Origin: Chloroflexota bacterium
GTDB taxonomy: Bacteria; Chloroflexota; Anaerolineae; Promineifilales; Promineifilaceae
DNA length: 42,485 bases
Assembly (NCBI GenBank): GCA_020631655.1
Contig: JAHDGV010000002.1
Span: 18,655-61,139, forward strand
Direction: 5' to 3'
In this document: piece by piece, positions 20,354-41,953 of the stretch
How positions within the stretch are numbered: position 1 is the stretch's first letter
How the letters are laid out: the number at the start of each line of letters is the position of its first letter
Made by a program: the position numbers and the translations under genes
The notes under the pieces: model-generated
What the model was told of the DNA's origin: nothing
What the model saw: the letters and a program-made list of their open reading frames with translations, nothing else
Databases searched by the model: none

Positions 20354-22264
20354 GTGCGATGTGTTTGTCTTATTCCAGGAAAGGACCTTTCACACTTGAC
20401 TTCAAACTGGACCACAGACCCTCTCATAGGAAAACAGCTTGCGAACTTTCTGATTCAGAAGGTTATTGGGCGCGGGGGTATGGCGACGGTTTACCAAGGT
20501 GTCGATGTTGTTTTAAACCGGCCGGTCGCGGTTAAAGTCATCCATCAGTTTTACAGGAACAATCCGGTTTACGTAAAACGAATGCAGAGAGAGTCTCAGC
20601 TTATTGCCACTTGGCGACATACAAATATTGTTCAGGTCTACTACGCTGATTTCGATGGTGAATTCCCTCATTTTGTGATGGAGTACGTCGATGGCCCGGA
20701 TTTGCGCAGTATTTTGGATGATTGTCAGCGTGAATCAAGCCTGCTTCCGATAGACGATGTTTTGCGCATTGGAGAGACAATTGCATCTGCTTTAGATTTT
20801 GCTCATAGCCAAGGGGTGATTCACCGGGATGTGAAACCATCTAATGTGATGCTTTCCCACAGCGGCAATATTTTGCTAACAGATTTTGGGCTGGCTCTTG
20901 AGATGGCCGAAGGGACACTGGGAGAATCGTTTGGTACGCCGCACTACATGGCGCCTGAGCAAGCTAAAAAAGCGGCCGATGCTAGCGGAGCGTCTGATCT
21001 ATATTCGCTGGCCATCATTATGTTTGAAATGTTGGCCGGTCGGTTGCCATTTGAGGGTGACAGTGTAACGGGCATCCTGCTTAATTCATTGGCCGGTGAT
21101 TTGCCGGACATTACCACCTTAAACGATCAATTGCCTGTGGACACCAACGGCGTGTTTGCTAAAGCGTTGGCAAAAGAACCAAATGATCGGTATGCAACTG
21201 GTGAAGAGATGCTTTTGGCTCTTAAGCAGGTGCTGAATCAATCGGAAGAGGAGTTGAGTCCGTCTCTTGAAACACTTGTGTCTAGCCATATCGAAAATGA
21301 TAGCCTGAACACAAATAATGAGTTGCGACACACGTTAGCCGGCCGATTGATCGAGAAAAAGAGCAACGATAATCGTCTCGAAAGATTGCTGGATACGCCT
21401 ACTGAGCACGACCCATCCAATCGCAAACCGACTGAGTTTGAGCGGATAACAAAAGGTGCGGCCGAGATGCCTGCCCCTGTTCCTCCTTCAGCATTGCCTG
21501 GCTCATCTTTTAAGATTATTCCTTATATGATTGCAGGCACCATAGCGCTGGCCGTTTTACTAGTGGCCCTAATCTTTTTCGGATTTAGAAACGAACTGAC
21601 TAACGGTGTTGCGAGTTCTACAGAGGCAGAAACGCGAATTAGTGTCGCTTCAGAAGCTACCGTCCTTCAAGAGCCTGAATCTGAGGCTGCGGTTTCCGCA
21701 CCTGAGCAATTGGCTACGGTTGTCCCCACAATCAATTCAGGCGTTGTGGTTCCAACAGAGACTCAGGCAGAGCCAACGGCCGAAGTCGAGCAACCAACCT
21801 CAACGCCAATCCCGACGCCCACCGATACACCGGTTCCAACCCCATCCCCAACAAGAATCAACAATCCTGATTTAATTGTGATCTACACAGACCCCTTGGC
21901 CATGTATGTGCTCAATCCTAGTGATGCTGAGCTGGATGTAGCTTTACTTTCATTTACCGGGTTAGATGAGGCAGGTGGACAGACAGAATTTGAATTTTCA
22001 GCCCGAAAATGGGGGAGAACAACGATCGAGCCTCAAAAATGTAGCGCTCTGGAGATCGGATCCAATCAAGAAAACCTGCGTGATCCACGCTGTACAGGGT
22101 TTAACTGGATCGATTATCCCGGCCATAACGAGCCAAGCCGATTCTGGATTGAACGGCCGGAGATTAGTCAAGGCAGTTTTGGGGTCTACTGGGGTGGCGA
22201 GCTTGTACGCGTGTGTCAGATCCCTGCAGGTGTTTGCAGGATCAGTTTAGATGGATTTGGGTAA
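20354..22264 (+). CDS. Transmembrane Ser/Thr protein kinase with P/T-rich extracytoplasmic linker and C-terminal domain
   Basis: IGRGGMATVYQGVDVVLNRPVAVKVI, GVIHRDVKPSNVML, LTDFGLA, TPHYMAPEQ; TM segment ~IIPYMIAGTIALAVLLVALIFFGF; start uncertain. Confidence 0.93.
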   Translation: MRCVCLIPGKDLSHLTSNWTTDPLIGKQLANFLIQKVIGRGGMATVYQGVDVVLNRPVAVKVIHQFYRNNPVYVKRMQRESQLIATWRHTNIVQVYYADFDGEFPHFVMEYVDGPDLRSILDDCQRESSLLPIDDVLRIGETIASALDFAHSQGVIHRDVKPSNVMLSHSGNILLTDFGLALEMAEGTLGESFGTPHYMAPEQAKKAADASGASDLYSLAIIMFEMLAGRLPFEGDSVTGILLNSLAGDLPDITTLNDQLPVDTNGVFAKALAKEPNDRYATGEEMLLALKQVLNQSEEELSPSLETLVSSHIENDSLNTNNELRHTLAGRLIEKKSNDNRLERLLDTPTEHDPSNRKPTEFERITKGAAEMPAPVPPSALPGSSFKIIPYMIAGTIALAVLLVALIFFGFRNELTNGVASSTEAETRISVASEATVLQEPESEAAVSAPEQLATVVPTINSGVVVPTETQAEPTAEVEQPTSTPIPTPTDTPVPTPSPTRINNPDLIVIYTDPLAMYVLNPSDAELDVALLSFTGLDEAGGQTEFEFSARKWGRTTIEPQKCSALEIGSNQENLRDPRCTGFNWIDYPGHNEPSRFWIERPEISQGSFGVYWGGELVRVCQIPAGVCRISLDGFG

Positions 22265-22447: not shown

Positions 22448-23965
22448 ATGGCCCGTTGGCAACCAAACGCGTTAGAACAAAAACGTGTAGAAAAACTAGA
22501 AGCCCTGAAAGAAGCAGGCATTAACCCATATCCCCTACGTATTGAGCGGACACACACCTCGGCCGAAGCGATTGCTGAATTTGAAAAGGCCGAAGCGGCC
22601 GCCGGTGAAGACGAAAAACCGACAATTGCGGCTACGATCACCGGCCGGGTTGTGAGTATTCGGGATAAGGGTAAGCTGATCTTTTCGCACATCGAAGACG
22701 GACACGGCCGTTTACAGCTATTTATCCGCCAAAACTCAATTGGTGAAGAATCCCATCAAGTTTTCAAAAAGCTGATCGACTTGGGTGACTTTGTGCAAGC
22801 AAGTGGCGAAATCTTCCGGACCAAAATGGGGGAAGTGAGCATCAATGTTTCTGAATGGAAAATATTGAGCAAAGCCCTTAGCCCATTGCCTGTTTCAAAA
22901 GAGTCTGAAATTGATGGGGAGGTGGTGCGCCACAGTGCATTTGCAGACGTCGAGGAGCGGTATCGCCAGCGCTATGCTGACTTGGCCGTGAATCGCGACG
23001 TGCGCGAGATTTTTTGGGCACGGGCGAAAGTTGTTAAAGCGATCCGCAATTATTTGGATGATTTAGGCTTTTTGGAAGTTGAAACACCCATCCTGCAACC
23101 GATTTACGGTGGTGCTGCGGCCAAGCCATTTGTGACCCATCACAATCAGCTCAAGCAAGATTTGTATCTACGCATTTCGTTTGAACTTTACCTGAAAAAA
23201 CTAATTGCAGGTGGCATTGAGCGTGTGTACGAAATCGGCCGGGACTTTCGGAACGAAGGAGTTAGCTTTAAGCACAATCCTGAGTTTACCCAGGTCGAGT
23301 TTTATGCCGCGTATTGGGATTACAAAGATGTGATGCGCGCCACCGAAGGGATGGTTGCGGCCGCGTGTGAAGCGGTAAACGGCACATTGCAGATCGAATT
23401 TGATGGGAAAGAGGTTGACCTGACTCCACCTTGGCCCCGAATCACCATGCGTGAGGCGATCAAAAAATACTCGGGCATCGACTACATGGATCATCGGACG
23501 GCCGATGCGCTGGCGCAGGCGATGGGTAAAAAAGATGCAGATGGTGATGCGTGGGGCAAATTGATCGATGAGCTGTTTGGCGAATTTGTTGAACCCAAAT
23601 TGATCCAGCCAACATTTATCATCGACTACCCGCGTGAGATTTCTCCGTTTGCAAAAATGATACCAAATGACCCTTCTCACGTAGAGCGCTTTGAAGGATT
23701 TATCGCCGGAATGGAATTGTGTAATGCATTTACCGAGCTTAACGATCCGCTTGACCAAGAAGATCGCTTTTTCGAGATGCAGGAAATGTACCAATCTGAT
23801 GACGATGAGAGTAATCCCATCGACCATGATTATCTAAAAGCGATGCGGTACGGTATGCCACCGAACGGAGGTTTTGGGATGGGTATCGACCGTCTCACTA
23901 TGTTGTTGACCAACAAAACTACCATCCGTGAAGTGCTCTTGTTCCCGCATCTGCGCGATAAATAA
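22448..23965 (+). CDS. lysS: Lysyl-tRNA synthetase (class II)
   Basis: 505 aa; RYRQRYADLAVN, FLEVETPILQPIYGGAAAKPF, RISFELYLKKLIAGGIERVYEIGRDFRNEG, GFGMGIDRLTMLLT. Confidence 0.96.
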   Translation: MARWQPNALEQKRVEKLEALKEAGINPYPLRIERTHTSAEAIAEFEKAEAAAGEDEKPTIAATITGRVVSIRDKGKLIFSHIEDGHGRLQLFIRQNSIGEESHQVFKKLIDLGDFVQASGEIFRTKMGEVSINVSEWKILSKALSPLPVSKESEIDGEVVRHSAFADVEERYRQRYADLAVNRDVREIFWARAKVVKAIRNYLDDLGFLEVETPILQPIYGGAAAKPFVTHHNQLKQDLYLRISFELYLKKLIAGGIERVYEIGRDFRNEGVSFKHNPEFTQVEFYAAYWDYKDVMRATEGMVAAACEAVNGTLQIEFDGKEVDLTPPWPRITMREAIKKYSGIDYMDHRTADALAQAMGKKDADGDAWGKLIDELFGEFVEPKLIQPTFIIDYPREISPFAKMIPNDPSHVERFEGFIAGMELCNAFTELNDPLDQEDRFFEMQEMYQSDDDESNPIDHDYLKAMRYGMPPNGGFGMGIDRLTMLLTNKTTIREVLLFPHLRDK

Positions 23966-24009: not shown

Positions 24010-25404
24010 ATGCGATTTTCAAACCAGCAAAAACAACGATACCAACGAATCAAATCACTTGACCAGATGCAGGCGATGGACCCCATCGATTTTGAGCATT
24101 ATTGTGCGTGGCTGTATACCAAAGAAGGGTACAAGGTTGCGGATACTAAAACGTCAGGGGACGAAGGGATTGATCTTCTTTTAACAAAGGGGAACAAAAA
24201 AGTTGTTGTGCAGTGCAAGCGCTACTCTGGCAATGTCGGACAGCCGGTTGTGCGTGATTTATATGGGGCGATGTTCCATGTAGCCGCAACAGAGGCGCAT
24301 TTATGCACCACCGGCCGGATTTCGCGCCAGGCGGAAAGCTGGGCGGCTGGTAAGCCGATTGAATTGCTGGATGGGAGTGATATGGTGGCTTGGGCCAACA
24401 AATGGCGCAGGCAAGAAGTTGAGCGGAGCGGTGCAAGTATTATTTGGACCACTGCAACCGTTGCTGTAGTCGGCGTCGTCATCGTGGCCGCACTTGCGCT
24501 AATGGCTGGCGGATGGTTTTTCTTCAATCGGCGTACAAACCGGCCGGAGCCAACCCCCGTTCTAAGCGTACCCGTCCTGCCAACTGTCACGCCCAGCGGG
24601 CAAAGCGGTATTGATCAGCCGGTGACTCAAATCACCCCCTTACCCACGGAAGAAGCAACTGAAACCCCAGAAGAAACACCTGAAGAGGAGCCAGAAGAAA
24701 CGGTTGAGTTAGCACCTACAACGACGCTCAGACCAACCGACGAACCACCTACCTCTGTTCCTGCGGCCGTAAATGTTGAAGTTCCGCGCCGTTCGGCCGA
24801 TATTCTGATTGATGGGTCGTTAGACGAGTGGGGTGATCCGATTACCACGGCCAATGTGACTGTCTACACATCAAGCCAGTGGGATGGAACGGATGACTCA
24901 GAATCTAGCTGGTATTTGGCTTGGGACGAGCAGGCTTTATTTATTGCCGCTTTGGTGATTGATGATGTTCATGCACAATATTCAACCGGCCCGGAAATTT
25001 TTAGAGGGGACAGCCTTGAAATCCAGTTTGATACGGATCGGGACGGAGACTTTGGAAACGGAGTCTCGGCCGATGAATTCCAACTTGAGATTTCTCCCGG
25101 AAACTTTGGTGATTTGGCCCCAGAAGCGTGGCGATTTGCAGGGTCAAACAGCGGGCAATATTTAGATTCTCCGGGGCATCAGATTGTAGTTGCGGCCGAG
25201 GAGACCCCGTTTGGCTATTTTATCGAAGCACGGATTCCGTGGTCCAACATCAATGTGTCACCATCGGCCGGACTGGTGATTGGGGCAAACTTAAACGTCA
25301 ACGACAACGACACTGCTGGCCCATTACAAGAGATGATGAAATCGAATGTGCCGTCTCGGAGTTATGCGAACCCCACAACGTGGGGCACATTGACTTTACG
25401 TTAG
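24010..25404 (+). CDS. Mrr-like restriction endonuclease domain, TM helix, acidic/P/T linker and CBM9-like C-terminal domain
   Basis: MDPIDFEHYCAWLYTKEGYKVADTKTSGDEGIDLLLTKGNKKVVVQCKRYSGNVGQPVVRDLYG (Mrr-like D...QxK core), TM IIWTTATVAVVGVVIVAALALMAGGWFFF, then ILIDGSLDEWGD...WYLAWDEQALFIAALVIDD...RGDSLEIQFDTDRDGDFG...GYFIEARIPWSNI. Confidence 0.85.
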   Translation: MRFSNQQKQRYQRIKSLDQMQAMDPIDFEHYCAWLYTKEGYKVADTKTSGDEGIDLLLTKGNKKVVVQCKRYSGNVGQPVVRDLYGAMFHVAATEAHLCTTGRISRQAESWAAGKPIELLDGSDMVAWANKWRRQEVERSGASIIWTTATVAVVGVVIVAALALMAGGWFFFNRRTNRPEPTPVLSVPVLPTVTPSGQSGIDQPVTQITPLPTEEATETPEETPEEEPEETVELAPTTTLRPTDEPPTSVPAAVNVEVPRRSADILIDGSLDEWGDPITTANVTVYTSSQWDGTDDSESSWYLAWDEQALFIAALVIDDVHAQYSTGPEIFRGDSLEIQFDTDRDGDFGNGVSADEFQLEISPGNFGDLAPEAWRFAGSNSGQYLDSPGHQIVVAAEETPFGYFIEARIPWSNINVSPSAGLVIGANLNVNDNDTAGPLQEMMKSNVPSRSYANPTTWGTLTLR

Positions 25405-25422: not shown

Positions 25423-25920
25423 ATGTTTAGACCCAAACCGATAAAACCAGGGCCGGGACAAGAATCTGTTTGGGATTACCCGCGTCCAGCTATTGCTGAG
25501 CCAACGCCCAAGCGTATCCAAGTTATCTTTAACGGGGTGATGATAGTTGACACGACATCGGCATACCGTGTTTTGGAGACAAGCCATCCACCCAGCTACT
25601 ATGTGCCCCCGCAGGATGTCGAGATGCAATATTTTTCGGCAGGGACCGGCCAATCATTTTGTGAATGGAAAGGACCGGCAAAATACTACTCGATTGAAGT
25701 AGATGGGAAACGGGCCGAAAATTGCGCTTGGTATTACCCCAACCCAACCCCAGATTTTGTCAAAATGAAAAACTATATCGCCTTTTATTTATCTTTGATG
25801 GATGAATGTCGTGTAGCTGGTGAAGTTGCAACAGCTCAAGAAGGTGGTTTTTACGGGGGATGGGTAACCAAAGACATTGTGGGGCCGATGAAAGGTGGCC
25901 CGGGAAGCCGAGGCTGGTAA
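25423..25920 (+). CDS. DUF427-family protein
   Basis: 165 aa; ESVWDYPRPAIAEPTPKRIQVIFNGVMIVDTTSAYRVLETSHPPSYYVPPQDV ... SFCEWKGPAKYYSIEV ... AENCAWYYPNPTPDF. Confidence 0.85.
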   Translation: MFRPKPIKPGPGQESVWDYPRPAIAEPTPKRIQVIFNGVMIVDTTSAYRVLETSHPPSYYVPPQDVEMQYFSAGTGQSFCEWKGPAKYYSIEVDGKRAENCAWYYPNPTPDFVKMKNYIAFYLSLMDECRVAGEVATAQEGGFYGGWVTKDIVGPMKGGPGSRGW

Positions 25921-29396: not shown

Positions 29397-29702
29397 TCAC
29401 AAATCTCGCCAATCTTCCCAGTTATCCCGATTACGTCGGTCACTTACCATGCCAGAAATGCCATAAAAGCCGATCATAATGCCCACAATCATACAGCCGT
29501 AAGCAAGGAAATTAAGGAAAAATGTGGATGGCAACAGCCGAATCAAGATAAGAAACGGGAGACATGCACCAGCAATCAGCAAAACTGTTGCAATAATAAT
29601 GTACTTAGTTGGTGAGCCCTGCACGTTCTTTCCATTCCTCTTCCACAAGCCAACAGGCCGCCACATGTTTATTTCCAGTGATTGCCATATTTGAACCGTC
29701 AA
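29397..29702 (-). CDS. Small two-TM membrane protein, unknown (true start probably internal, near VQGSPTKYII)
   Basis: ORF with two hydrophobic stretches IIIATVLLIAGACLPFLILI and FLNFLAYGCMIVGIMIGFYGI; overlaps the 3' end of the ABC ATPase gene. Confidence 0.55.
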   Translation of the reverse strand: MTVQIWQSLEINMWRPVGLWKRNGKNVQGSPTKYIIIATVLLIAGACLPFLILIRLLPSTFFLNFLAYGCMIVGIMIGFYGISGMVSDRRNRDNWEDWRDL

Positions 29703-30630
29703 CTACCGGCATTGGCTTAGGCATATCAACATCACATTTCCCTTTGATGGCAAATTTGCATCTTGGGTGAAAGCGGCAACCAGACGGCGGATTAACCAAG
29801 CTGGGCGGCTCGCCGGGCGGGATTTCTTTGTACTCAAGCGCATTTTTTGCATCTGGGTCACCCGATGCCTCGAGCAATGCTTGGGTGTATGGATGCGTTG
29901 GATTCTCGAGCAGGCTTTTAATCGGGGCGAATTCAACGATTTGCCCCGCATACATCACAAAAATATATTCTGAAAAATAACGAACCGTAGAGAGGTCATG
30001 GGTAATATAAATGACCGCCAGATTATGTTTTTCTTGCAGATTGCGCAGGAGCTTTAAGATTTCAACTCGTACAGAGGCATCGAGCATCGATACCGGTTCG
30101 TCCGCAACCAGTAGGTCTGGTTCTAAGATCATTGCCCGGGCGATAACAACCCGCTGTTGTTGGCCACCGCTCAGCATATGGGGAAACTTTGGCAAAATTT
30201 CCTCAACAGGGGTGAGTTTTACCTCTTCCATGATCGTTTCAATTTTAGATTGCCGCTCCGCCGCATTGGTAAAGCCATTAATGATTAGCGGTTCTTCTAA
30301 GATCTGCTGGATGGTCATAAATGGAGCCAATGCCCCAAATGGATCTTGCTGAATAAAGCCAACTTTAGAGCGATAATCGCGCAAATCTAATCCGTCCAAC
30401 TCTCCAACATTGATCCCCTTGAAATCAATTGTACCTTTTGTTGGCTTGTTTAGACGCAAAATCGTCTTCATCAGGCTCGATTTGCCACAACCACTTTCGC
30501 CAACACAGGCCATCGCTTCACCGGCGTTTAACTCGAAGGATACGCCGTCTACGGCCCGAACATAACCCGCATGGCCCAGACCAAATCTTTTCAGTTCGTA
30601 CCAAACGTGTAGATCATCAACTTTTAGCAT
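29605..30630 (-). CDS. Oligopeptide/dipeptide ABC transporter ATP-binding protein (F-type), transporter 2; start set at MLKVDDLHVWYE
   Basis: [45 protein letters not shown]-terminal oligopeptide/dipeptide region GCRFHPRCKFA. Confidence 0.93.
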   Translation of the reverse strand: MLKVDDLHVWYELKRFGLGHAGYVRAVDGVSFELNAGEAMACVGESGCGKSSLMKTILRLNKPTKGTIDFKGINVGELDGLDLRDYRSKVGFIQQDPFGALAPFMTIQQILEEPLIINGFTNAAERQSKIETIMEEVKLTPVEEILPKFPHMLSGGQQQRVVIARAMILEPDLLVADEPVSMLDASVRVEILKLLRNLQEKHNLAVIYITHDLSTVRYFSEYIFVMYAGQIVEFAPIKSLLENPTHPYTQALLEASGDPDAKNALEYKEIPPGEPPSLVNPPSGCRFHPRCKFAIKGKCDVDMPKPMPVVDGSNMAITGNKHVAACWLVEEEWKERAGLTN

Positions 30631-31645
30631 ACATTTCCTCCCAAGTGTCTGGATTACTCTCGGCCGAAACACTGTCCGACTCGTGTAACCAGCATTTTAC
30701 CTTCCGGCCGTCTGACATATTAAATACCGGTGGCTCGTCAGAGCAGCGCTCAAATCTAGCCGGACACCGGTCTGCAAATCGGCAGCCGGTAGGTGGTTTT
30801 AACAGGCTGGGTGGTTGACCCGAAATAAAGTCAGGTTGCATTTCCCCATAAAGCCGAGGCACGCTATCCATCAGTGCTTTTGAATAGGGATGGAGTGGCT
30901 CTGTGAAGAAGTTATGCGCGTCGCTGACTTCTACAACTTGCCCGGCGTACATGACCGCCACATTGTCTGCCAGCTCACTTGATGTAGCGATATCGTGCGT
31001 AATCAGGATAAACGACGCTTTTTTCTCTGCTTTGAACCGCTTGAGCAGGTTCATAATATTCGCCTGCGTCAGCACATCTAGGGCTGATGTCGGCTCATCC
31101 AACAAAACCATTTCAGGCTCAGTGATGAGGGACATCGCAATTGCTACACGCTGGCGCATACCGCCGCTAAGCTCAAAAGCATATCGGTACAGAAAGTCGG
31201 CCGGTACACCCACTTGATCAAACTTCTCAAGTGCCAGTTCCATCGCTTCTTTTTTCGTTAGTTTGCCATCTAGCAAAATTGGTTCAGCAACCTGATCACC
31301 CACCCGCATGACAGGATTAAGCGAATTCAGAGCCGCCTGAGGCACCATGGCTATCCGTTGCCAGCGAATGTCTTTTCTAAACTGCTCATCCGACAACTTC
31401 ATGATATCTTGGTTGTTTAAAAACACTTCACCAGAATAGTGATCGACATTTTTTGGCAACAGGCGCAAAATCGCTTTTGCCAAAGAGCTTTTGCCACAGC
31501 CGGATTCGCCCAAAATAACGGTCGCTTGGTTTTTAGGGAGATCGAAATTTACACCGTCTACCGCTTGCACCGCCCCCGATTTGACACGGAAGTGTAATTT
31601 TAAATCCCTAACCCGCAGCAAGTCGGTTGTTTCATTGTTGTTCAT
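30617..31645 (-). CDS. Oligopeptide/dipeptide ABC transporter ATP-binding protein (D-type), transporter 2
   Basis: [62 protein letters not shown]. Confidence 0.93.
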   Translation of the reverse strand: MNNNETTDLLRVRDLKLHFRVKSGAVQAVDGVNFDLPKNQATVILGESGCGKSSLAKAILRLLPKNVDHYSGEVFLNNQDIMKLSDEQFRKDIRWQRIAMVPQAALNSLNPVMRVGDQVAEPILLDGKLTKKEAMELALEKFDQVGVPADFLYRYAFELSGGMRQRVAIAMSLITEPEMVLLDEPTSALDVLTQANIMNLLKRFKAEKKASFILITHDIATSSELADNVAVMYAGQVVEVSDAHNFFTEPLHPYSKALMDSVPRLYGEMQPDFISGQPPSLLKPPTGCRFADRCPARFERCSDEPPVFNMSDGRKVKCWLHESDSVSAESNPDTWEEMYAKS

Positions 31646-31649
31646 GTTG

Positions 31650-32984
31650 CTATATCTCCCGCAGTTTTGGATTGAAAATCCGGTCTAAGGCAAACCCAAC
31701 TAAAGAGAAGCCCACACCAACAAGCATCATTAATACCGCTGGTTCAAGCATCCAATAGTAGTACCCGTTAAACAAGGCGCCTTGGCTTCGAGCGTTCTCG
31801 ATTACTTTGCCCCAAGTTGGCAATACCGGGTCACCCAATCCAAGAAGCGCCAGGGTCGCTTCTGTAAATACAAATGCGGGGACTGAGGTTACAAGGGCCG
31901 GAATTACCAGTGGGATTACACGAGGAATTAAGTAGCGGAAAATGATACGTCTACTGCCAGCACCGTAAGCCTGTGCCGCCTCGATATAGGGTAATTCACG
32001 CGTTTGTAAAAAGATTGATCGGTAGGTTTTGACACCACCGCCGAATATATTGAGCGCGATTACCATCCCTAAAATCACCCAAATACTGCGTGAGTAGAGG
32101 GTTCCGATAAGAATAAGCAGCGGCAAGCCGGGCAAAATAAGGTTTACGTCTGTGACCCGCTGAATGGCCGAATCAACCCATCCTCCATACCAAACGCTGG
32201 TAGCGGCGATGATCATATTTGCGGCTGTAATAACCAGAGCCGCAACCAATCCAAACGCCATTGCGATTGGTGTGCCCCACAGCAGGGCAACTGAAATATC
32301 ACGGCGTAAATGGTCTGTCCCAGCGATTCCGTGAACCGCTCCGTACATGACGAGCTTGGCCTCAAAGTCAGATTCTTCTTCAAAAATTAAGCCTACAAGT
32401 CGTACCTGATAGGTTCCTTTCTGTGGCGTTGGTTCAGCCAAGCTGGGGTCTAAAAAGAATCCAACTTCGGCCGAATTTGCTTCAACCCGCCGCATAACAC
32501 GATCATCTTGGGTCGGCCGATAAATTTCTTGCCCACCCGGTGTGACTTCACCAGCGCGAATTTCCTCGCCGTTTGGTGTGACCCAAAAAATTTCAACAAA
32601 GGGTTGTTTTTCGATGAAATCCGCTTCAATGAAGAAGGTTAGCTCTGGGACGAATGAAGCATATTCATAATCAAAAGACATTGTGATTACTTTTTCTTCA
32701 ATATCATCTGAGATTGTGGTGTAGCTAATTGCTGTCTCGGGTAATTCCCGGCTGTCAAGGATCAGAGTTGGGGGCAGGTTTTCTTGATTGAACCAATTCA
32801 CCCACGTTGGGCGAGCATTCCTCGGATTATTTTCAACGACCGCTTCCCCCCCACGCCATCTTTCAAGCGCTTCTGAATAGGGGATGGTTATGACAGCATA
32901 AAGCGCCAGCAGGATAAAGCCGAAAATGATAGCTAACCCCACAATGGCTGATGGATATTGGCGTATTTCACTCCATCTAATCAT
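31650..32984 (-). CDS. ABC transporter permease (DppC/OppC-like) with unusually large extracytoplasmic insert, transporter 2
   Basis: 444 aa; C-terminal BPD_transp_1-like part, YIEAAQAYGAGSRRIIFRYLIPRVIP (EAA motif). Confidence 0.92.
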   Translation of the reverse strand: MIRWSEIRQYPSAIVGLAIIFGFILLALYAVITIPYSEALERWRGGEAVVENNPRNARPTWVNWFNQENLPPTLILDSRELPETAISYTTISDDIEEKVITMSFDYEYASFVPELTFFIEADFIEKQPFVEIFWVTPNGEEIRAGEVTPGGQEIYRPTQDDRVMRRVEANSAEVGFFLDPSLAEPTPQKGTYQVRLVGLIFEEESDFEAKLVMYGAVHGIAGTDHLRRDISVALLWGTPIAMAFGLVAALVITAANMIIAATSVWYGGWVDSAIQRVTDVNLILPGLPLLILIGTLYSRSIWVILGMVIALNIFGGGVKTYRSIFLQTRELPYIEAAQAYGAGSRRIIFRYLIPRVIPLVIPALVTSVPAFVFTEATLALLGLGDPVLPTWGKVIENARSQGALFNGYYYWMLEPAVLMMLVGVGFSLVGFALDRIFNPKLREI

Positions 32985-34141
32985 CGGCCGCTACTCCCTT
33001 CGCCCACGCGTACTCGAGGGTCAACGATGGCATACATAATGTCCAGAATGAGTAATGTGAATGTGAGCAGATACGCATCGAGCACTGTCAAAGAGATAAT
33101 GACGGCCGTATCAAACTGCCCAATCGCTTGGCCATAGGTGTTGCCTAACCCGGGCCAGTTCATCACCGTTTCTAATACAATCGATCCACCCCAAAGGGCC
33201 AGCAAAACGAACGCAAAGGAGGTGATGATGGGAGGCAATGTCGGGCGCAAAATATAGCGTCTTTCTACCAAGTTATCTGGCAACCCTTTTGCTTTTGCCA
33301 TGTCCACATAGTCTTCACTTGCAAAGGCTAAAAAGAAGGTCCGTTGGCTATAAATGCCGGAAAAAACCGCATTGATGACAATCGCCCCAACAGGGATGAT
33401 CATGTGGAAGGCCAAGCTCTTGGCGTATCCCCAAGTAGTTTCTGGAGGTGGTGCTGAAACCATACCACCAAACGGTAGCCAGTTGAGAAGCGCGGCAAAA
33501 ATCACAATAAAAAAGAGGGCATAGAACCATGAAGGGGCGGCCGAAGTTGGCGCTAGCCCAATGATTGCTTTGTCCAGCCAGCTACCATAGCGTCTTGATA
33601 GGGCCAATCCCCCAAACAAGGTTAAGAAGAACAGCATCAGTAGTCCTGTTCCCATTAACACCAGCGTGGCGGGTAAGCGTTCCAGAATAATATTTCGGAT
33701 CAGCCTGGAGCCGGAATCACTGGTCATATTGTCTGCAAAGCCCAGATTTAGAGTCATTGCTGATCCCAAAGCTCTGAAGCTCCTAATCGCAAACGGCTGA
33801 TCGAGTCCAAATCGTTTTTCAGCTAAGGCCACTTGTTGCGCAACCATCTCATTTCGCTGTTCTTGGGACATTGCTTTTAAAGCCGGGTCCTCAAGCGCCT
33901 GAATAGCGACAAAATTGGCAATTTCCTCTTGAATGACCGCACGGCGGATGTCATCTAGCGCACCCCCCATGTTTGCGATTAGCACGGTCAGATAGACGCC
34001 AACAGTCACAGTGGCAATTGCAGCCAAAATGCGACGCAAAATATATTTTGATAGGCGAAAAACCGTATCATTTCGAGCTTTTGTAGATGCTTGTTCAACA
34101 TCTGCCAATTCTTTGCTCGGTTCGATTGGAGCTACAGCCAT
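32981..34141 (-). CDS. ABC transporter permease (DppB/OppB-like), transporter 2
   Basis: 386 aa; YVDMAKAKGLPDNLVERRYILRPTLPPI, GSIVLETVMNWPGLGNTYGQAI. Confidence 0.92.
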   Translation of the reverse strand: MAVAPIEPSKELADVEQASTKARNDTVFRLSKYILRRILAAIATVTVGVYLTVLIANMGGALDDIRRAVIQEEIANFVAIQALEDPALKAMSQEQRNEMVAQQVALAEKRFGLDQPFAIRSFRALGSAMTLNLGFADNMTSDSGSRLIRNIILERLPATLVLMGTGLLMLFFLTLFGGLALSRRYGSWLDKAIIGLAPTSAAPSWFYALFFIVIFAALLNWLPFGGMVSAPPPETTWGYAKSLAFHMIIPVGAIVINAVFSGIYSQRTFFLAFASEDYVDMAKAKGLPDNLVERRYILRPTLPPIITSFAFVLLALWGGSIVLETVMNWPGLGNTYGQAIGQFDTAVIISLTVLDAYLLTFTLLILDIMYAIVDPRVRVGEGSSGR

Positions 34142-34268
34142 AATCTATTTCTCTTTTAAATGGTAAATTTAGGATAGGGACGCAAGACAGGGATAGATGA
34201 AAATCTCTACTTCCCGATCTCTATCTTCCATCTCTATCGCCATATTACTGGCCAAATACAATGCAAAT

Positions 34269-34311
34269 GGGAGGACAAGTGTCTCTCAATCAAGAAAACA
34301 CTTGCCCTCCC
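34269..34311 (-). terminator. Strong hairpin between SBP gene and downstream permease (partial terminator or mRNA-stabilising)
   Basis: 14-bp arms 34269-34282 and 34298-34311; the single mismatch becomes a G-U wobble only in minus-strand RNA. Confidence 0.7.
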
Positions 34312-34349
34312 AGCAAAGACTAATCGATTAGATTAATCATTACGTCGTC

Positions 34350-36971
34350 TTACGGTGATGCTACAAACTCAAGTGAGCTTAAGCTTGGAAGAGCTACGCG
34401 TGTTGAGCTTACAACAACCTCTAAGCGGCTTGAGCCAGCTTCTAGGTCGCCAGTTACATCTGAACCGAGGGTAACTTGCCACAAACCATCTTCGATGGCA
34501 TCTGCTGAACCTTGGCCAACGAGGGCGCCGGTTGCGTCAAATAGCAAGTAGGTGACTTCGCTGATGTCAGCCATTGCGTATGGTGCACCATCGAAGCTAA
34601 CGATAACATCGAATACAGCTTCATCGCCGTTGGTTACACGGCCTGGACCGTCTAGTTCAACTTCTGCGATTGCAGGGGCCGCGAAGCGATCCCATTTGTT
34701 CGATGCATCTGGGTAAGCCGTGTTCCGTTGCAGGATCACGTTACCTTCAACTGGGAATGCACGTTGCAAGAAGAATGGTCCGGTTCCAATCCAGAAGTGA
34801 CCGCGTACGCGATTCCACTCAGCTAGATTTTCGTAACGGGCTGTTGCATCTTCTGCTGTTACAAATTGTCCCATAGTAGGTTCGTATGGAATGAATCCAG
34901 ATGCAATAGCACCTTCGATTCCTTCTTCTTCGTTACCGTTGAGCATGTTGCCCAAGATTTCAAGTGTTGGACCTGAAACGTAGCTCATGTGCTCGATTTC
35001 AGCCGTTGTTGATTTGTCGGCCGAGAATGCGGTTAGACCTTGGGTTTCAGCCATTACACCGATCGCCAAGTTGTGCCATGCACCTTCACCTTGGTTGTAT
35101 TGCGGCCACCAGGTTGCAACACCGTTTTCAGCGTCAAGAGACCAAGCATCGGTGTAGGTTTCAATCGTCAACGGATCCAATGAAAGAACGCGGGTTCCTT
35201 TGAAGGTTCCGATGAATGATTCAAACGCTGCAACTTGAGCTTCGTCATAGATTGCACTGGCTTCTTTAGCTTGATCAAATTGCATGATCATGCCCATCAC
35301 GAAGTCAGCTGGGCTGATTGCACTACCATCATGCCAAGTTACGGTTTCCCAAAGGTCAGCAGGATAGGTAACGGTGCTCTTGAGCAACGCTGTTTGTGTT
35401 TCGGTGAATTTCTCAGATGCGGTGATAAATGTTTGGGTTTCTGCATCCCAATCTACCCATGCATCATCTGGTACGGTAATTTCAGCAGCTGATTCAAGGG
35501 TTACCCAGTCAAGCGTTTTACCTACTGGCAAATCTTCTTGAGCGGTAACGGTTGCGCTTTCAATCCGTTGTGGAATTGCAAGACCAGTATGCGGATCAGG
35601 CAATGTACCAGCGTCGCCGGTTGCACGGATCAACGATTGGTCAAAGATCCAGTTAGAACCAGCGATTGGGTTCCAAGCTTCGGTCAAGATGCTTGGCATC
35701 GCCATGGTTACAGAACCACCAACTTCTTCGCCACGGCGCAGGGTGTATGGCCAGAAGCGAGAACCGCTGATACCACCAGAAAGGTCGGCCGACAATGAGA
35801 TTTCACTGCGATATGGCCAAGCTGATTGGAGGTCTACCAACCAAATGCGTTGTGATTCTTCCATCGCCAAAGGCAAGATGGCGCTAATCATTTCAGCACG
35901 TTCTTCGAGGGTTGAGTAGTCGCTGTCATTCAAACGTTGTGCTAAATCAGCAAATTCATCGCTGTTTTCATAAGCTTGGAACAACGGGAATGGAAGCCCA
36001 GCTGCAGTTTGGAAGAATTGCCAGTTACCACCTACGTCACGGCTAATGGCTGTAGATATCCAGCCGCCGGTGTAGTAGTTGAATGCACAGTCGCTAGGCT
36101 CGCCGCGCAACCAGATTGGTGAAGCGTCGGCCGAGCTTTTGTAGTCACGAAGAACGGTGAAACCGATATCTTCCAATTGGTCAGCAACATAGTCACCGAT
36201 TTCAGTACGTTGGTCTTCTGTACGGATCAAACCGCTCAATTCGATTGGCGCACCGTTGAAGTTCCAAACGCCATCTACCAATTCAGCACCCATAGCTTCC
36301 ATCTCGGTTGCGATGGTAGCAGCGGCTGCTTCTTGGTTGAATGCATATTGTGCTTCGATAGCTCGGATGTCGGCAGCAAAACGGCCGCGGTCAGCTGAAG
36401 CAGCGTTGATTGCCACGTACCGTGGGGTTGCAAGGCCACCCATAATTTCAGTAGCGATAAAATCACGATCAACCAATTGGTTCATTGCTTCGCGGATTGC
36501 CGCGTTAGCAAATGGGTTCATCACACCTTCGTCAGCGCAGGCTGCAGGGTTAAACGAAATTTCGTAGTAAAGGCCGAATGATTGAACACTATCGATCGCA
36601 TCAATTTCTTGAAGACGTGCAAACGAGGTTGGGTTACCGATGTCATCCGCAAAAACGTCGATATCACCTGCTTCTAGACGGCTGATAGCCGCATCTGCAT
36701 TTGCCTCTTCCAATACCACGACGGTATCAACCCAAGGACCATTCCGGTCAACGGGTACTGGGGTCGCTTCAACAACAACCTCAACAATTTTTTCTACTTC
36801 TACTTCCTTAACGACTTCGACCTCTTCAACAACTTCTTGAACGACTTCGACTTCGCGTGTGACTTCAACTTCCTTGATAACTTCTACTTCACGAACAACT
36901 TCTACGGGTTCGGCCGTACAAGCGATTAAAAGCAGAGTCAACAATGAAGTCACGAAAAACAATTTCTTCAT
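34350..36971 (-). CDS. Family 5 extracellular solute-binding lipoprotein, apparently permuted domain order, C-terminal Ig-like region
   Basis: 873 aa; lipobox LLTLLLIAC; E/V repeat linker; C-lobe-like segments (SRLEAGDIDVF, FANAAIREAMNQLVDRDFI) precede the N-lobe-like segment (GGSVTMAMPSILTEAWNP, VTWHDGSAISPADFV). Confidence 0.9.
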   Translation of the reverse strand: MKKLFFVTSLLTLLLIACTAEPVEVVREVEVIKEVEVTREVEVVQEVVEEVEVVKEVEVEKIVEVVVEATPVPVDRNGPWVDTVVVLEEANADAAISRLEAGDIDVFADDIGNPTSFARLQEIDAIDSVQSFGLYYEISFNPAACADEGVMNPFANAAIREAMNQLVDRDFIATEIMGGLATPRYVAINAASADRGRFAADIRAIEAQYAFNQEAAAATIATEMEAMGAELVDGVWNFNGAPIELSGLIRTEDQRTEIGDYVADQLEDIGFTVLRDYKSSADASPIWLRGEPSDCAFNYYTGGWISTAISRDVGGNWQFFQTAAGLPFPLFQAYENSDEFADLAQRLNDSDYSTLEERAEMISAILPLAMEESQRIWLVDLQSAWPYRSEISLSADLSGGISGSRFWPYTLRRGEEVGGSVTMAMPSILTEAWNPIAGSNWIFDQSLIRATGDAGTLPDPHTGLAIPQRIESATVTAQEDLPVGKTLDWVTLESAAEITVPDDAWVDWDAETQTFITASEKFTETQTALLKSTVTYPADLWETVTWHDGSAISPADFVMGMIMQFDQAKEASAIYDEAQVAAFESFIGTFKGTRVLSLDPLTIETYTDAWSLDAENGVATWWPQYNQGEGAWHNLAIGVMAETQGLTAFSADKSTTAEIEHMSYVSGPTLEILGNMLNGNEEEGIEGAIASGFIPYEPTMGQFVTAEDATARYENLAEWNRVRGHFWIGTGPFFLQRAFPVEGNVILQRNTAYPDASNKWDRFAAPAIAEVELDGPGRVTNGDEAVFDVIVSFDGAPYAMADISEVTYLLFDATGALVGQGSADAIEDGLWQVTLGSDVTGDLEAGSSRLEVVVSSTRVALPSLSSLEFVASP

Positions 36972-37295
36972 TTTTAATCTCCTTATTTTAAATTTTGACT
37001 AAATGTCAATTGTTTCAAAAAAACATGCAGATCTTGCGGATAGTGCATGCAATTGATCTTATTAAGTGGCTCCCATAGGTGTCACCACCTATTAGAATGA
37101 TGACGATCTAAGTTTTATTTTGGTCTGGAATGAGGCTATGTTGGTTCAATAAAACTTTGGTATAAAAAATTAATTTTGAGTTTGCACGAGTCTCAATGTG
37201 TATCTCCACAATCTGTGAAATTATGTTGATTTCCTCGAGATAATATGTCAATTAACAACATTTTGCACGTACATCTAACTTAGTCTAACAACTGT

Positions 37296-38315
37296 TTAAA
37301 CAAGATCTGGTAATTTGCTTGATTTACCTTCATCCAACAGATGGCAAGCCGCATAGTGATCATCGCCATAATCCTTGAATTCTGGCTCTTCCGTTTTGCA
37401 TCTTGCAAATGCCAGCGGGCATCGAGTATGGAAGCGGCAACCAGACGGTGGATTGATTGGACTTGGGACGTCACCTTCTAAAATGATCCGTTTTTTGCGC
37501 TGTTTAGGGTCTGGGATGGGGATCGCAGACATGAGAGCCTGTGTATACGGGTGTAGAGGGTTTTGGAACAGGTCCCCTCTCGTAGCCATCTCGGCCATCT
37601 TGCCCAAATACATCACCCCAACCCGATCGCTAAAGTGCTCGACCACGCTTAAATTATGGGCAATGAACAGGTAGGTTAGCCCAAATTCATCTTGAAGTTC
37701 TTCAAGCAGGTTTAAAACCGAGGCCTGAATCGATACGTCTAACGCCGATACTGGCTCGTCACAAACGATAAACTTTGGATTTACAGCTAATGCGCGAGCA
37801 ATACCGATCCGCTGACGCTGACCGCCTGAAAATTCGTGGGGATAGCGGCGAGCGTGGTCGGCCCGCATACCTACCCGCGTCAACATTTGAACAACCAATT
37901 CGTACCGTTCTTCGGCCGTTTTGTTGGTGTGGATGCGGAGCCCTTCAGCGATACTTTCACCAATCGGCATACGTGGATCAAGTGATGAATACGGGTCCTG
38001 AAAGATAATCTGCATCTCTTGACGAAGCTCTTTGAGCTCGTTTTTAGGCAAAGTTGCCACATCAGTTCCATCAAACAACACTGAGCCTGACGTCGGTTCG
38101 ATTAAGCGTAAAATCGTACGGCCGGCCGTTGTTTTGCCACAGCCAGATTCGCCTACCAAGCCAAGAGATTCCCCTTCGTAGATATGAAAGCTAATATCAT
38201 CAACCGCTTTAACCCAGCCGGTTGTCCGTTGAAGCAAACCTGATTTGATAGGGAAATGCTTTTTGAGGTTCTTGACCTCAACTAAAACTTTTTTCTTTTT
38301 GGTCGTTTCGCTCAC
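37296..38315 (-). CDS. Oligopeptide ABC transporter ATP-binding protein (OppF-like), transporter 1
   Basis: [49 protein letters not shown]. Confidence 0.94.
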
Positions 38316-39340
38316 GAGTTCCCCTTAGCTTGAATAGATTTTTCTTCAGACGTTGGCAGATCGTGCAACCAGCAACGAACTTCATGATTTTCTGAGACTG
38401 TTTTCAAATCTGGATCTTCCTCTTTGCAAATTTCCAGATCATTTTCGATGCGCGCCGCACAGCGAGGTGCAAATTTACAGCCGGTGGGTAAATTGATTAG
38501 GTTTGGCACAGATCCCGGGATCGAAACAAGTTCGCGGTCAACGTCTCCCAGAACCGGAGTAGCGCCGATGAGAGCGGCCGTGTACGGATGTTTTGGATTT
38601 TCGAACAGCTCGTTAACTTCGGCCGTTTCAACAACTCGTCCCGCATACATCACCACAACCCGGTCACATAATTCAGCCACAACTCCAAGGTCATGGGTGA
38701 TCAAAATGACGGCCGTATCCATCTGGGATTTTAGCTCACGGATCAGGTCGAGAATCTGCGCCTGAATGGTCACATCCAGCGCTGTAGTCGGCTCGTCCGC
38801 AATCAGTAGCTCAGGTACACATGCCAACGCCATAGCGATCATCACACGTTGCGCCATGCCACCCGACATTTCGTGCGGCCAAGCGGTATAGCGGTCTTCT
38901 GGAGATGGAATGCCTACTAGGGTCAAAAGCTCAATGGTCCGTTGTTTGGCCGCCTCACGATCCATGTTTTGATGAACGTGCAGAACTTCGGTTATCTGGT
39001 CACCCACACGGAAAACCGGATTTAGCGAGCTTTGCGGTTGCTGAAAGATCATCGATATGCGATTCCCGCGAATCTCTGAAAGTTCTGTTTGAGTCATCTT
39101 CGAGAGATCTTCGCCATCTAGCAAGACCTCACCTTCAACAATCCGGCCGGGTGCACCGACTAAGCCCATAATCGAAAGAGATGTGACGCTTTTGCCACAT
39201 CCAGACTCGCCCACAATGCCAAGCACCTCACCACGATTAACGTGGAAACTAACTCCGTCAACAGCCCGAACAACACCAGATTCTGTAAAAAACTGGGTTT
39301 TTAGATTGTTGACGTCAAGAATTTTCCTGTCTTTTTCCAT
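38312..39340 (-). CDS. Oligopeptide ABC transporter ATP-binding protein (OppD-like), transporter 1
   Basis: [51 protein letters not shown]; start overlaps next gene (ATGA). Confidence 0.94.
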
Positions 39341-39390
39341 TCAAATATCCAAAAGACCTTGTGGGTCTAAATAATTTTTATTTAAAATTT

Positions 39391-40011
39391 TTACTCGTTA
39401 AACTCAACACTTTCAACGATGAGTTTAAAAAATAGCTCGTTGTCTGCCCAATCATCTGGTGGGGCGGTTGCGGAAAAAATGTATACGGCACCGCCGTTTG
39501 ATTCCGCACCAACAATCCAAGCCTCTTGAGAGATTTCATTGTTTTCGGGGTCGGCCTCAAAATTCATCCGAATTTGTTTGGCCGGCCGGCCGTCAAGCTC
39601 AAAATCTTCGATATCTCGTAAGGTGGCGTACCCGTCACGTTTGGGGCCAAAATCCAGATAGTGATTGAACTCACCTTCTAAGTTACCGTGAACACTGATG
39701 ATGGGAACCCGCAAGATGGCCAATAACGGGCCGGGATCATCGCCTACAATGGTTTCGGTTGGGCCAACCGCCATGAAGTTTTGTTGCGGGATAATAACAG
39801 ACCAGTCTGATGGGTAAAGGAAATCAATCGCCGCAGCATTTTCATGCTGTTTCATCCTAACTTCATCCCCGGAAGATGCATCTGTCTCAGAGATCCCATC
39901 ATCCTCCGTTTCAGTCGTAGATGGCGGAGGAGTGCCACAAGAAACGGTTGCTAGTGCCAGTAGGATGAACAGGGCGAATGCCACATATTTTTTAAGACTA
40001 TTTTTGATCAA
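39391..40011 (-). CDS. Predicted lipoprotein (PsbP-like?) inside peptide transporter operon
   Basis: 206 aa; lipobox LALATVSC; IDFLYPSDWSVIIPQQNFMAVGP ... WIVGAESNGGAVYIFSATAPPDDW. Confidence 0.8.
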   Translation of the reverse strand: MIKNSLKKYVAFALFILLALATVSCGTPPPSTTETEDDGISETDASSGDEVRMKQHENAAAIDFLYPSDWSVIIPQQNFMAVGPTETIVGDDPGPLLAILRVPIISVHGNLEGEFNHYLDFGPKRDGYATLRDIEDFELDGRPAKQIRMNFEADPENNEISQEAWIVGAESNGGAVYIFSATAPPDDWADNELFFKLIVESVEFNE

Positions 40012-40019
40012 TGAACGGC

Positions 40020-40946
40020 CTATTTTAGTTTTGGGTCGAGGGCGTCGCGCAATCCGTCACCAATAATAAACACGCACAACACGGTGATGGTGATCATAAT
40101 TCCGGCCGGCAAGATCAAATAATATTTGTCTGGCTCAAAAACATACTGCTGTGACTTTGTCAGCATGTTGCCCCAAGTTGGTGTCGGCGGCCGTACGCCA
40201 AACCCGATAAAGCTCAGGATCGCTTCGGCCAGCATCAAATTACCAACCGCACGGGCTGCCACAATAATTACCGTTGGGATCACATTGGGCAAAATGTGCT
40301 TCATGATGGTGTACATGTTTGATGCACCCAAAGCGGTTGAGGCCATGACGTACTCGCGCTCACGGAGAGAGAACACTTGGCCACGGACCAGCCGTGTGGT
40401 GAACGGCCAGGCTGTAAACCCAAAAATAATTACCAAAAGTGGCGGGGTAATCTCAAATAGCGCACCCAGAATCAGGAGCAGGTAAAGCTGAGGGATTGAG
40501 TTGAGCGTGTTGATTAACCACATAATGATGTCATCAACAAATCCGCCAAAGTAGGCCGCTACCATCCCTAAGGTAATCCCGATTGTCAGGATGAAAAAGG
40601 CACTAAAGAAACCGATGGCCAGAGAGATTCGGCCGGCGTAAATTAGCCGGGCAAACTGATCTTGGCCCAGGTCGTCTGCGCCCAAAAGGTGCTTGGCAGA
40701 AGGTGGCTCAAACTGCGCTAGCAGATCTGTGTCAAACGGATCAACCCCAAGTGCGTTGTTGATAGGTGTTGAGAGAAGGGATGCCGCTAAGATAATCCCG
40801 ATGACAATAATGGCTGCCATCGTGAGCTTATCGCGACGAATCCGGATAAGCGCAATTTGCCAAAAAGAAAGAGGTGCTTCGTCTTTTAAAGCCTCTTTTT
40901 GATTTTCTTCACGTAAAAGATCTTGAATTGATGCTGGAGTTGTCAT
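40020..40946 (-). CDS. ABC transporter permease (DppC/OppC-like), transporter 1
   Basis: 308 aa; HLLGADDLGQDQFARLIYAGRISL, EYVMASTALGASNMYTIMKHILPNVIPTVI. Confidence 0.95.
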   Translation of the reverse strand: MTTPASIQDLLREENQKEALKDEAPLSFWQIALIRIRRDKLTMAAIIVIGIILAASLLSTPINNALGVDPFDTDLLAQFEPPSAKHLLGADDLGQDQFARLIYAGRISLAIGFFSAFFILTIGITLGMVAAYFGGFVDDIIMWLINTLNSIPQLYLLLILGALFEITPPLLVIIFGFTAWPFTTRLVRGQVFSLREREYVMASTALGASNMYTIMKHILPNVIPTVIIVAARAVGNLMLAEAILSFIGFGVRPPTPTWGNMLTKSQQYVFEPDKYYLILPAGIMITITVLCVFIIGDGLRDALDPKLK

Positions 40947-40963
40947 GGTATCCTCAATAGCTA

Positions 40964-41953
40964 TTAACTTAGTCGAACTCGAGGATCGACCATCACGAGC
41001 AAAATATCCGTCAGCAAATTACCTGCAATAACTAAAACGGATGAGATGACGGTTACCGCCATGACCACTGGAAAATCTCGTTGAGATAAGGCTTCAAGGA
41101 CCATACGTCCCATTCCGGGCCAGTTAAAAATGCGCTCAACCACTACAGACCCACCCAATAAGGCGGTAATTGCAGGGCCAATAATCACCACAATGGGGAT
41201 GAGAGCATTGCGGGCCGCATGTTTGAAATAAACTTTGAAATTTGTTAGCCCTTTTGATTTGGCTGTCCGGACGTAGTCTTGCCCAAGAACCTCGAGGGTT
41301 TCAGCCCGCATGTAGCGTGACATAACGGCGATCCAGCCTACACCTAGAACAACGGTTGGCAAAATTAAATGTTGGATACGAACCCATAGGTTTACTGTTT
41401 CTGAACTTCGAATGGGGACCATGCCACCCAGCGGCAATATGCCCCACCTGACCCCAAACAGAATGATGAGCATGATGCCTAAAAAGAAGGAGGGGACGGC
41501 ATCAAATATGACAGACATAAAGCGGATGAGGTTGTCTGATAGTTTCCCCCTGAATATTGCGGAGATAATCCCAAGCGAGATACCCACTACTGTTCCAATG
41601 AGCATGGCTCCTACGGTTAATTGCAAAGTTGGGCCAATTTTCTCTGCATACATCTCAATTACCGGCCGGTCTTTACGGATGCTTGTGCCGAAGTCCCCAA
41701 AAATGATTCCTTGATTCGGGCATTCTCCGCTCCAATCCCCCACCATATAGAAGGTGTATTGTTGCCACAGCGGCCGGTCCAGACAAAGCTGCTGCCGCTT
41801 TAACTCTTTGTCTTCGGCCGTAAATGTTGGATCGAAGAACAGCATGTCGATCGGGTCACCGGGTGAAAACTGAACCATTAAAAAAGTAATGATCGTCACA
41901 CCCAGCAGAGTCGGAATTGTCTGTAAGAGGCGTCGAATTAAATAAGTTGTCAT
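40964..41953 (-). CDS. ABC transporter permease (DppB/OppB-like), transporter 1
   Basis: 329 aa; MTTYLIRRLLQTIPTLLGVTIITFLMVQFSPGDP, YVRTAKSKGLTNFKVYFKHAARNALIPIV. Confidence 0.95.
   Translation of the reverse strand: MTTYLIRRLLQTIPTLLGVTIITFLMVQFSPGDPIDMLFFDPTFTAEDKELKRQQLCLDRPLWQQYTFYMVGDWSGECPNQGIIFGDFGTSIRKDRPVIEMYAEKIGPTLQLTVGAMLIGTVVGISLGIISAIFRGKLSDNLIRFMSVIFDAVPSFFLGIMLIILFGVRWGILPLGGMVPIRSSETVNLWVRIQHLILPTVVLGVGWIAVMSRYMRAETLEVLGQDYVRTAKSKGLTNFKVYFKHAARNALIPIVVIIGPAITALLGGSVVVERIFNWPGMGRMVLEALSQRDFPVVMAVTVISSVLVIAGNLLTDILLVMVDPRVRLS

Follow-up and report, generated by a model that had tools for sequence, protein, structure and literature searches.

An Mrr-like nuclease domain joined to a CBM9-like domain across a single predicted membrane helix in the Promineifilaceae

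The window, a stretch of 42,485 nucleotides on contig JAHDGV010000002.1 of a Promineifilaceae genome (Chloroflexota), contains a complete open reading frame of 464 codons that lies between a lysyl-tRNA synthetase gene and a DUF427 gene (Table 1). As the earlier note had read it from the letters alone, this single frame encodes an Mrr-like core, a transmembrane (TM) helix, a linker and a CBM9-like domain, and the Pfam matches bear out both the domains and their order. Residues 149-167 are the sole strong hydrophobic segment of the protein (mean hydropathy 2.55), in agreement with the one TM helix proposed. An NCBIfam scan of the protein returned nothing beyond low-complexity matches of the linker type, and no signal for a separate promoter rose above chance in the gap behind lysS. 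Two genes upstream of the fusion gene, at 20354-22264, lies a Ser/Thr kinase with a TM segment and an outer domain; in relatives, such kinases adjoin or are fused to TM-CBM9 proteins (L057:9224-12783; L060:7351-11236). Two successive gene sets for peptide-type ABC transporters occupy 29605-41953 (ATPases at 29605-31645 and 37296-39340), and a large family-5 solute-binding protein is encoded within this region at 34350-36971.

Table 1. Features of the fusion gene and its immediate neighbours (window coordinates)
Feature	Position	Strand	Evidence
lysS-type lysyl-tRNA synthetase gene, 44 bp upstream	22448..23965	+	From sequence, not family scan; synteny in G002 and G004
ORF, Mrr_cat - TM - P/T/E linker - CBM9, 464 aa	24010..25404	+	
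Mrr_cat nuclease domain, residues 21-128	24070..24393	+	Pfam PF04471, 102.5 bits (cut-off 21); Foldseek
Mrr active-site codons E29, D55, Q68, K70	24094-24096, 24172-24174, 24211-24213, 24217-24219	+	
Continuous helix from nuclease core to membrane, residues 122-176	24373..24537	+	AlphaFold secondary structure
TM core, residues 149-167	24454-24510	+	Hydropathy
Disordered P/T/E-rich linker, residues 178-248	24541..24753	+	pLDDT
CBM9 domain, residues 267-463	24808..25398	+	Pfam CBM9_1 (PF06452), 80.1 bits (cut-off 23.4); PDB 1i82 by sequence and fold
DUF427 protein, 18 bp downstream	25423..25920	+	Pfam PF04248; synteny in G002 and G004

An AlphaFold model of the protein was built on a 37-row alignment of related sequences (mean pLDDT 86.5). 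It consists of an alpha/beta nuclease core (residues 1-121), an unbroken helix that includes the TM segment, a disordered stretch (pLDDT <50 across 178-223 and 229-248) and a beta-sandwich (255-463). Foldseek matched the C-terminal part to the CBM9 structures 1i82 and 7nwn (TM-scores by target 0.75 and 0.71), the xylanase modules that are also its PDB relatives by sequence; with the Pfam score and the sandwich fold, this upholds the CBM9-like identity first suggested. The N-terminal part was matched more weakly, to 1y88 (AF1548), MspJI, AspBHI and the Holliday junction resolvases (Hjc), and both the model and these matches give it a restriction-endonuclease-like fold.

The D...QxK catalytic pattern claimed for the Mrr-like core is exact (D55, Q68 and K70), and with E29 in the preceding helix the site is intact. 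The same quartet is intact in G002, G034, G065 and every Mrr-TM-stalk relative (described below), and is likewise present in Mrr proteins with N-terminal TM helices. The only exceptions among the relatives examined are two fusion paralogues in G010 (L019:1495-2937 and L047:8617-9966), which carry V, D, E, L and D, H, F, T at the four catalytic places. Both keep the Mrr-TM-linker-CBM9 layout, and the model of the L019 protein still has the same fold. Because both have lost the active site, catalysis is, to judge from these sequences, not essential to every member of the fusion family. The catalytic domain and its E/D/Q-x-K residues are shared with the Mrr_cat restriction-type nucleases, including E. 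coli Mrr. Unlike those enzymes, the window protein has no Pfam match to a DNA-recognition domain such as the Mrr_N winged helix (E up to 1), and its nuclease domain is N-terminal, followed by the TM helix, stalk and CBM9. Just 20 residues stand before Mrr_cat. Judged by an adjacent recognition domain, the protein does not qualify as a type IV modification-dependent restriction enzyme.

The CBM9 domain resembles that of Thermotoga xylanase 10A (1i82) in sequence, fold and three positions of the putative sugar site. F331 and Y452 align with two Trp residues of 1i82 (numbered by chain position) that we take to be sugar-stacking, and E337 aligns with a conserved Glu. All fusion proteins have aromatic residues at both stacking places (F/Y and Y/W), whereas many CBM9 relatives without Mrr carry Leu at the second. 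The window domain differs from 1i82 in being membrane-tethered, in its Phe/Tyr replacement of the Trp pair and in the Arg and Asn contact positions, which are not kept; sugar binding is putative.

The same architecture was found in seven genes from 6 of the 52 genomes of the family, and in three of the five genomes of the genus. The orthologue in G002 (JAHDEN010000028.1, Chloroflexi MAG-182) is a continuous ORF, 88% identical to that of the window. In G004 (JAHDEB010000013.1) the two halves lie around a scaffold N-gap, and in G065 each of two contigs carries part of the gene (L049:8365-9113 and L113:7001-7741), so that an assembly or gene-calling artefact merging two genes had to be considered. 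However, the G004 halves are in order between lysS and DUF427, the G065 break falls inside a DGTGVP tandem repeat of the linker that both contig ends carry, and continuous ORFs stand in G000, G002 and G034, with two more in G010. These independent copies, including that of G002 in the same gene order, rule out an assembly fusion, and the chance of an artefact of either kind is negligible. Homologs other than these two broken copies are single ORFs, not the pairs of separate genes through assembly or frameshift that the earlier note had held up against its own reading.

Synteny is identical in the window, G002 and G004, where the order is aroB-like, Ser/Thr kinase, lysS-like, fusion gene, DUF427, ADH-like, PTPS, glycosyltransferase and methyltransferase. 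In G003, of the same genus, the kinase and lysS are present and the fusion gene is absent behind lysS. More distant copies (G034, 44% identical; G065; two in G010) occupy loci that are unrelated across genera. Comparison of G000 with G002 gave a dN/dS of 0.03 for each of the two domains, Mrr and CBM9, and of 0.13, the highest in the gene, for the linker; these values are rough, as synonymous sites are near saturation. Both domains are, on these estimates, under strong purifying selection, and their low values relative to the linker suggest that both ends of the protein are functional. Beyond the family, a search of 396 class-level and 301 phylum-level genomes, with a limited number of candidates scored in each, turned up no complete fusion, though strongly diverged copies may have escaped it. 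Plasmids, phages and viral contigs yielded generic Mrr or CBM9 matches and no full-length match; spread on mobile elements was rejected on this result.

The orientation of the protein was judged from its relatives. Summed over 29 family members, the 20 positions next to the TM segment hold 75 lysine and arginine residues on its N-terminal flank against 32 on its C-terminal flank. In relatives that share the TM-CBM9 half, kinase domains, which need cytosolic ATP, lie on the Mrr side of the membrane. Both observations support a type-II topology, with Mrr predicted to be cytosolic and CBM9 outside, as was originally favored. The reverse arrangement, which had been offered as an alternative and would have an outer nuclease degrade or process extracellular DNA, draws on the near-neutral and indecisive charge of the window protein alone (4 against 3). 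It is very unlikely given the family-wide bias and the kinases, the occurrence of CBM9 on GH18 and lipoprotein-like relatives, and the P/T-rich stalks, which are typical of exported segments.

The two halves of the protein have separate relatives. Nearest to the window Mrr domain are Mrr-TM-stalk proteins from other families of the class; these are 48-56% identical to it and have the same distance to the TM segment and a P/T-rich tail past the membrane, but, unlike the window protein, no outer CBM9. These stalk proteins are encoded at L098, L099, L100, L102 and L104. The window domain is less similar to a second type of Mrr protein, with N-terminal TM helices, which most family genomes encode, and the Mrr tree, of modest support overall, separates the two types (93/93) and places the window type nearest Mrr-TM-stalk. 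Both kinds of membrane-bound Mrr exist apart from the fusion and show membrane placement to be the older trait. The related Mrr-TM protein at L103 differs in its outer domain, which no Pfam family matches.

In most family genomes, the TM-linker-CBM9 half is found with no more than a short cytosolic tail, of 10-45 residues in most CBM9 relatives. In some it stands behind Ser/Thr kinases (L017, L021, L027 and L093), a zinc ribbon, a lipoprotein-like N-terminus or GH18. The Mrr tree permits a single fusion group (bootstrap 49), whereas in the CBM9 tree the fusion CBM9s do not form one group and L022, a protein without Mrr, has its CBM9 among them. A single origin is compatible with the former tree and not seen in the latter; modules may have been exchanged in the history of the fusion, and Mrr may have been lost.

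No defence genes were seen around the fusion gene of the window, around four further fusion genes or at the Mrr-TM-stalk loci, and the check for a defence island that the earlier note had suggested was thus negative. Neighbours at the examined loci are metabolic or general (aldehyde dehydrogenase, folylpolyglutamate synthase-like, SppA-like and peptidase-like). PADLOC identified no real partner genes at these loci, and its matches to the window protein are partial and confined to the generic Mrr region (for example PDC-S02 231-354 of 390, and the ZorD tail). A STAND-type NB-ARC ATPase with TPR repeats is encoded at 4993-7467, about 16 kb upstream, without a clear defence partner.

We consider that the protein most likely is a membrane-held Mrr nuclease, docked by its outer CBM9, that cleaves phage or other foreign DNA entering the cell, and we put the probability of this at roughly 0.4; its nuclease activity, its glycan binding and its target are what we infer. 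The rigid helix would hold the PD-(D/E)xK nuclease at the cytoplasmic face of the membrane. This tether would keep it away from the bulk nucleoid and close to sites of DNA passage or contact at the membrane, so that incoming DNA could be cut near the inner membrane. CBM9, on its long flexible stalk, would attach the protein to a glycan, either on the cell surface or outside the cell, or mark a position in the envelope. In favour of this proposal are the domains and their folds, the intact catalytic quartet, the low dN/dS of both domains relative to the linker, the charge bias across the family, the aromatic pair that every fusion protein retains, the membrane-bound Mrr relatives and the experimental precedent of SNIPE. 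Counted against it are the lack of defence neighbours, the synteny in the genus and low dN/dS, which are equally typical of housekeeping genes, the dead G010 paralogues, the generic PADLOC matches and the polar contacts that CBM9 has not kept.

The closest experimentally tested precedent is SNIPE, a nuclease bound to the membrane that cleaves the DNA of phages while it is being injected (PMC13190303). It is toxic without its TM segment, the tether preventing self-damage (PMC13190303). The two proteins share a single TM segment, a cytosolic nuclease at the inner membrane and an outside part, a likeness of working principle only. SNIPE has DUF4041 and a GIY-YIG nuclease in an opposite, N-out order; the window protein has neither domain by Pfam and is not a homologue. 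By this analogy we infer that the window protein may likewise act while held near the inner membrane.

The earlier note had coupled ligand sensing to the nuclease. Its domains, TM helix and topology stand; the coupling is not specifically supported, since some 70 disordered residues separate the membrane from CBM9 and a signal could pass only through clustering or localization. PD-(D/E)xK nucleases frequently function as dimers, and a receptor in which CBM9 binds a glycan or a phage or envelope ligand, clusters and thereby activates Mrr by dimerization, in the manner of receptor kinases, would suit the receptor-like layout of the four kinases that carry the same outer half. Such a receptor is unlikely: the linker is unable to transmit a rigid signal, and most CBM9 relatives have a short cytosolic tail without a signalling part. 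Because the stalk would pass no conformational change, anchoring or positioning by CBM9 is preferred over allosteric sensing. A still bolder proposal, which we regard as improbable, is a class of surface-docked immune nucleases in which CBM9 recognizes a surface glycan or an envelope altered by phage and thereby positions or clusters Mrr at the inner face to cut injected DNA, members exchanging the nuclease for a kinase or a dead nuclease.

A role outside defence, in which Mrr would bind or process DNA of the cell itself (for contact between chromosome and membrane, for repair or in DNA uptake) and CBM9 would be a wall anchor, is doubtful taken by itself, yet it stands at odds similar to those of entry-DNA defence. 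It draws on the missing defence neighbours, on synteny with housekeeping genes and on the pseudo-nuclease copies; these last retain the fold, which fits DNA binding without cleavage. Strong purifying selection and the presence of TM-helix Mrr proteins in most family genomes, which resembles a core gene, also speak for it. The patchy presence of the fusion itself is unlike a core function, and different genera carry it at unrelated loci.

A literature search, with most subscription journals outside its coverage, found no description of a protein with both Mrr and CBM9. The novelty of the window protein is that of a variant of membrane-tethered Mrr nucleases, not of a new domain type. If the layout works as proposed for entering DNA, a single gene would both keep a nuclease where DNA enters and supply an outer docking domain, a tethering principle for which SNIPE, built from unrelated domains, is so far the experimental demonstration. 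The outer module of stalk and CBM9 is common to a nuclease, Ser/Thr kinases and bare anchors within one family, so that domain swaps could reveal what CBM9 does. The short-tail TM-CBM9 genes (L006-L016, L050, L053, L056 and L063) lie repeatedly near biotin-carboxylase/carboxyltransferase-like (accC/accD-type) genes.
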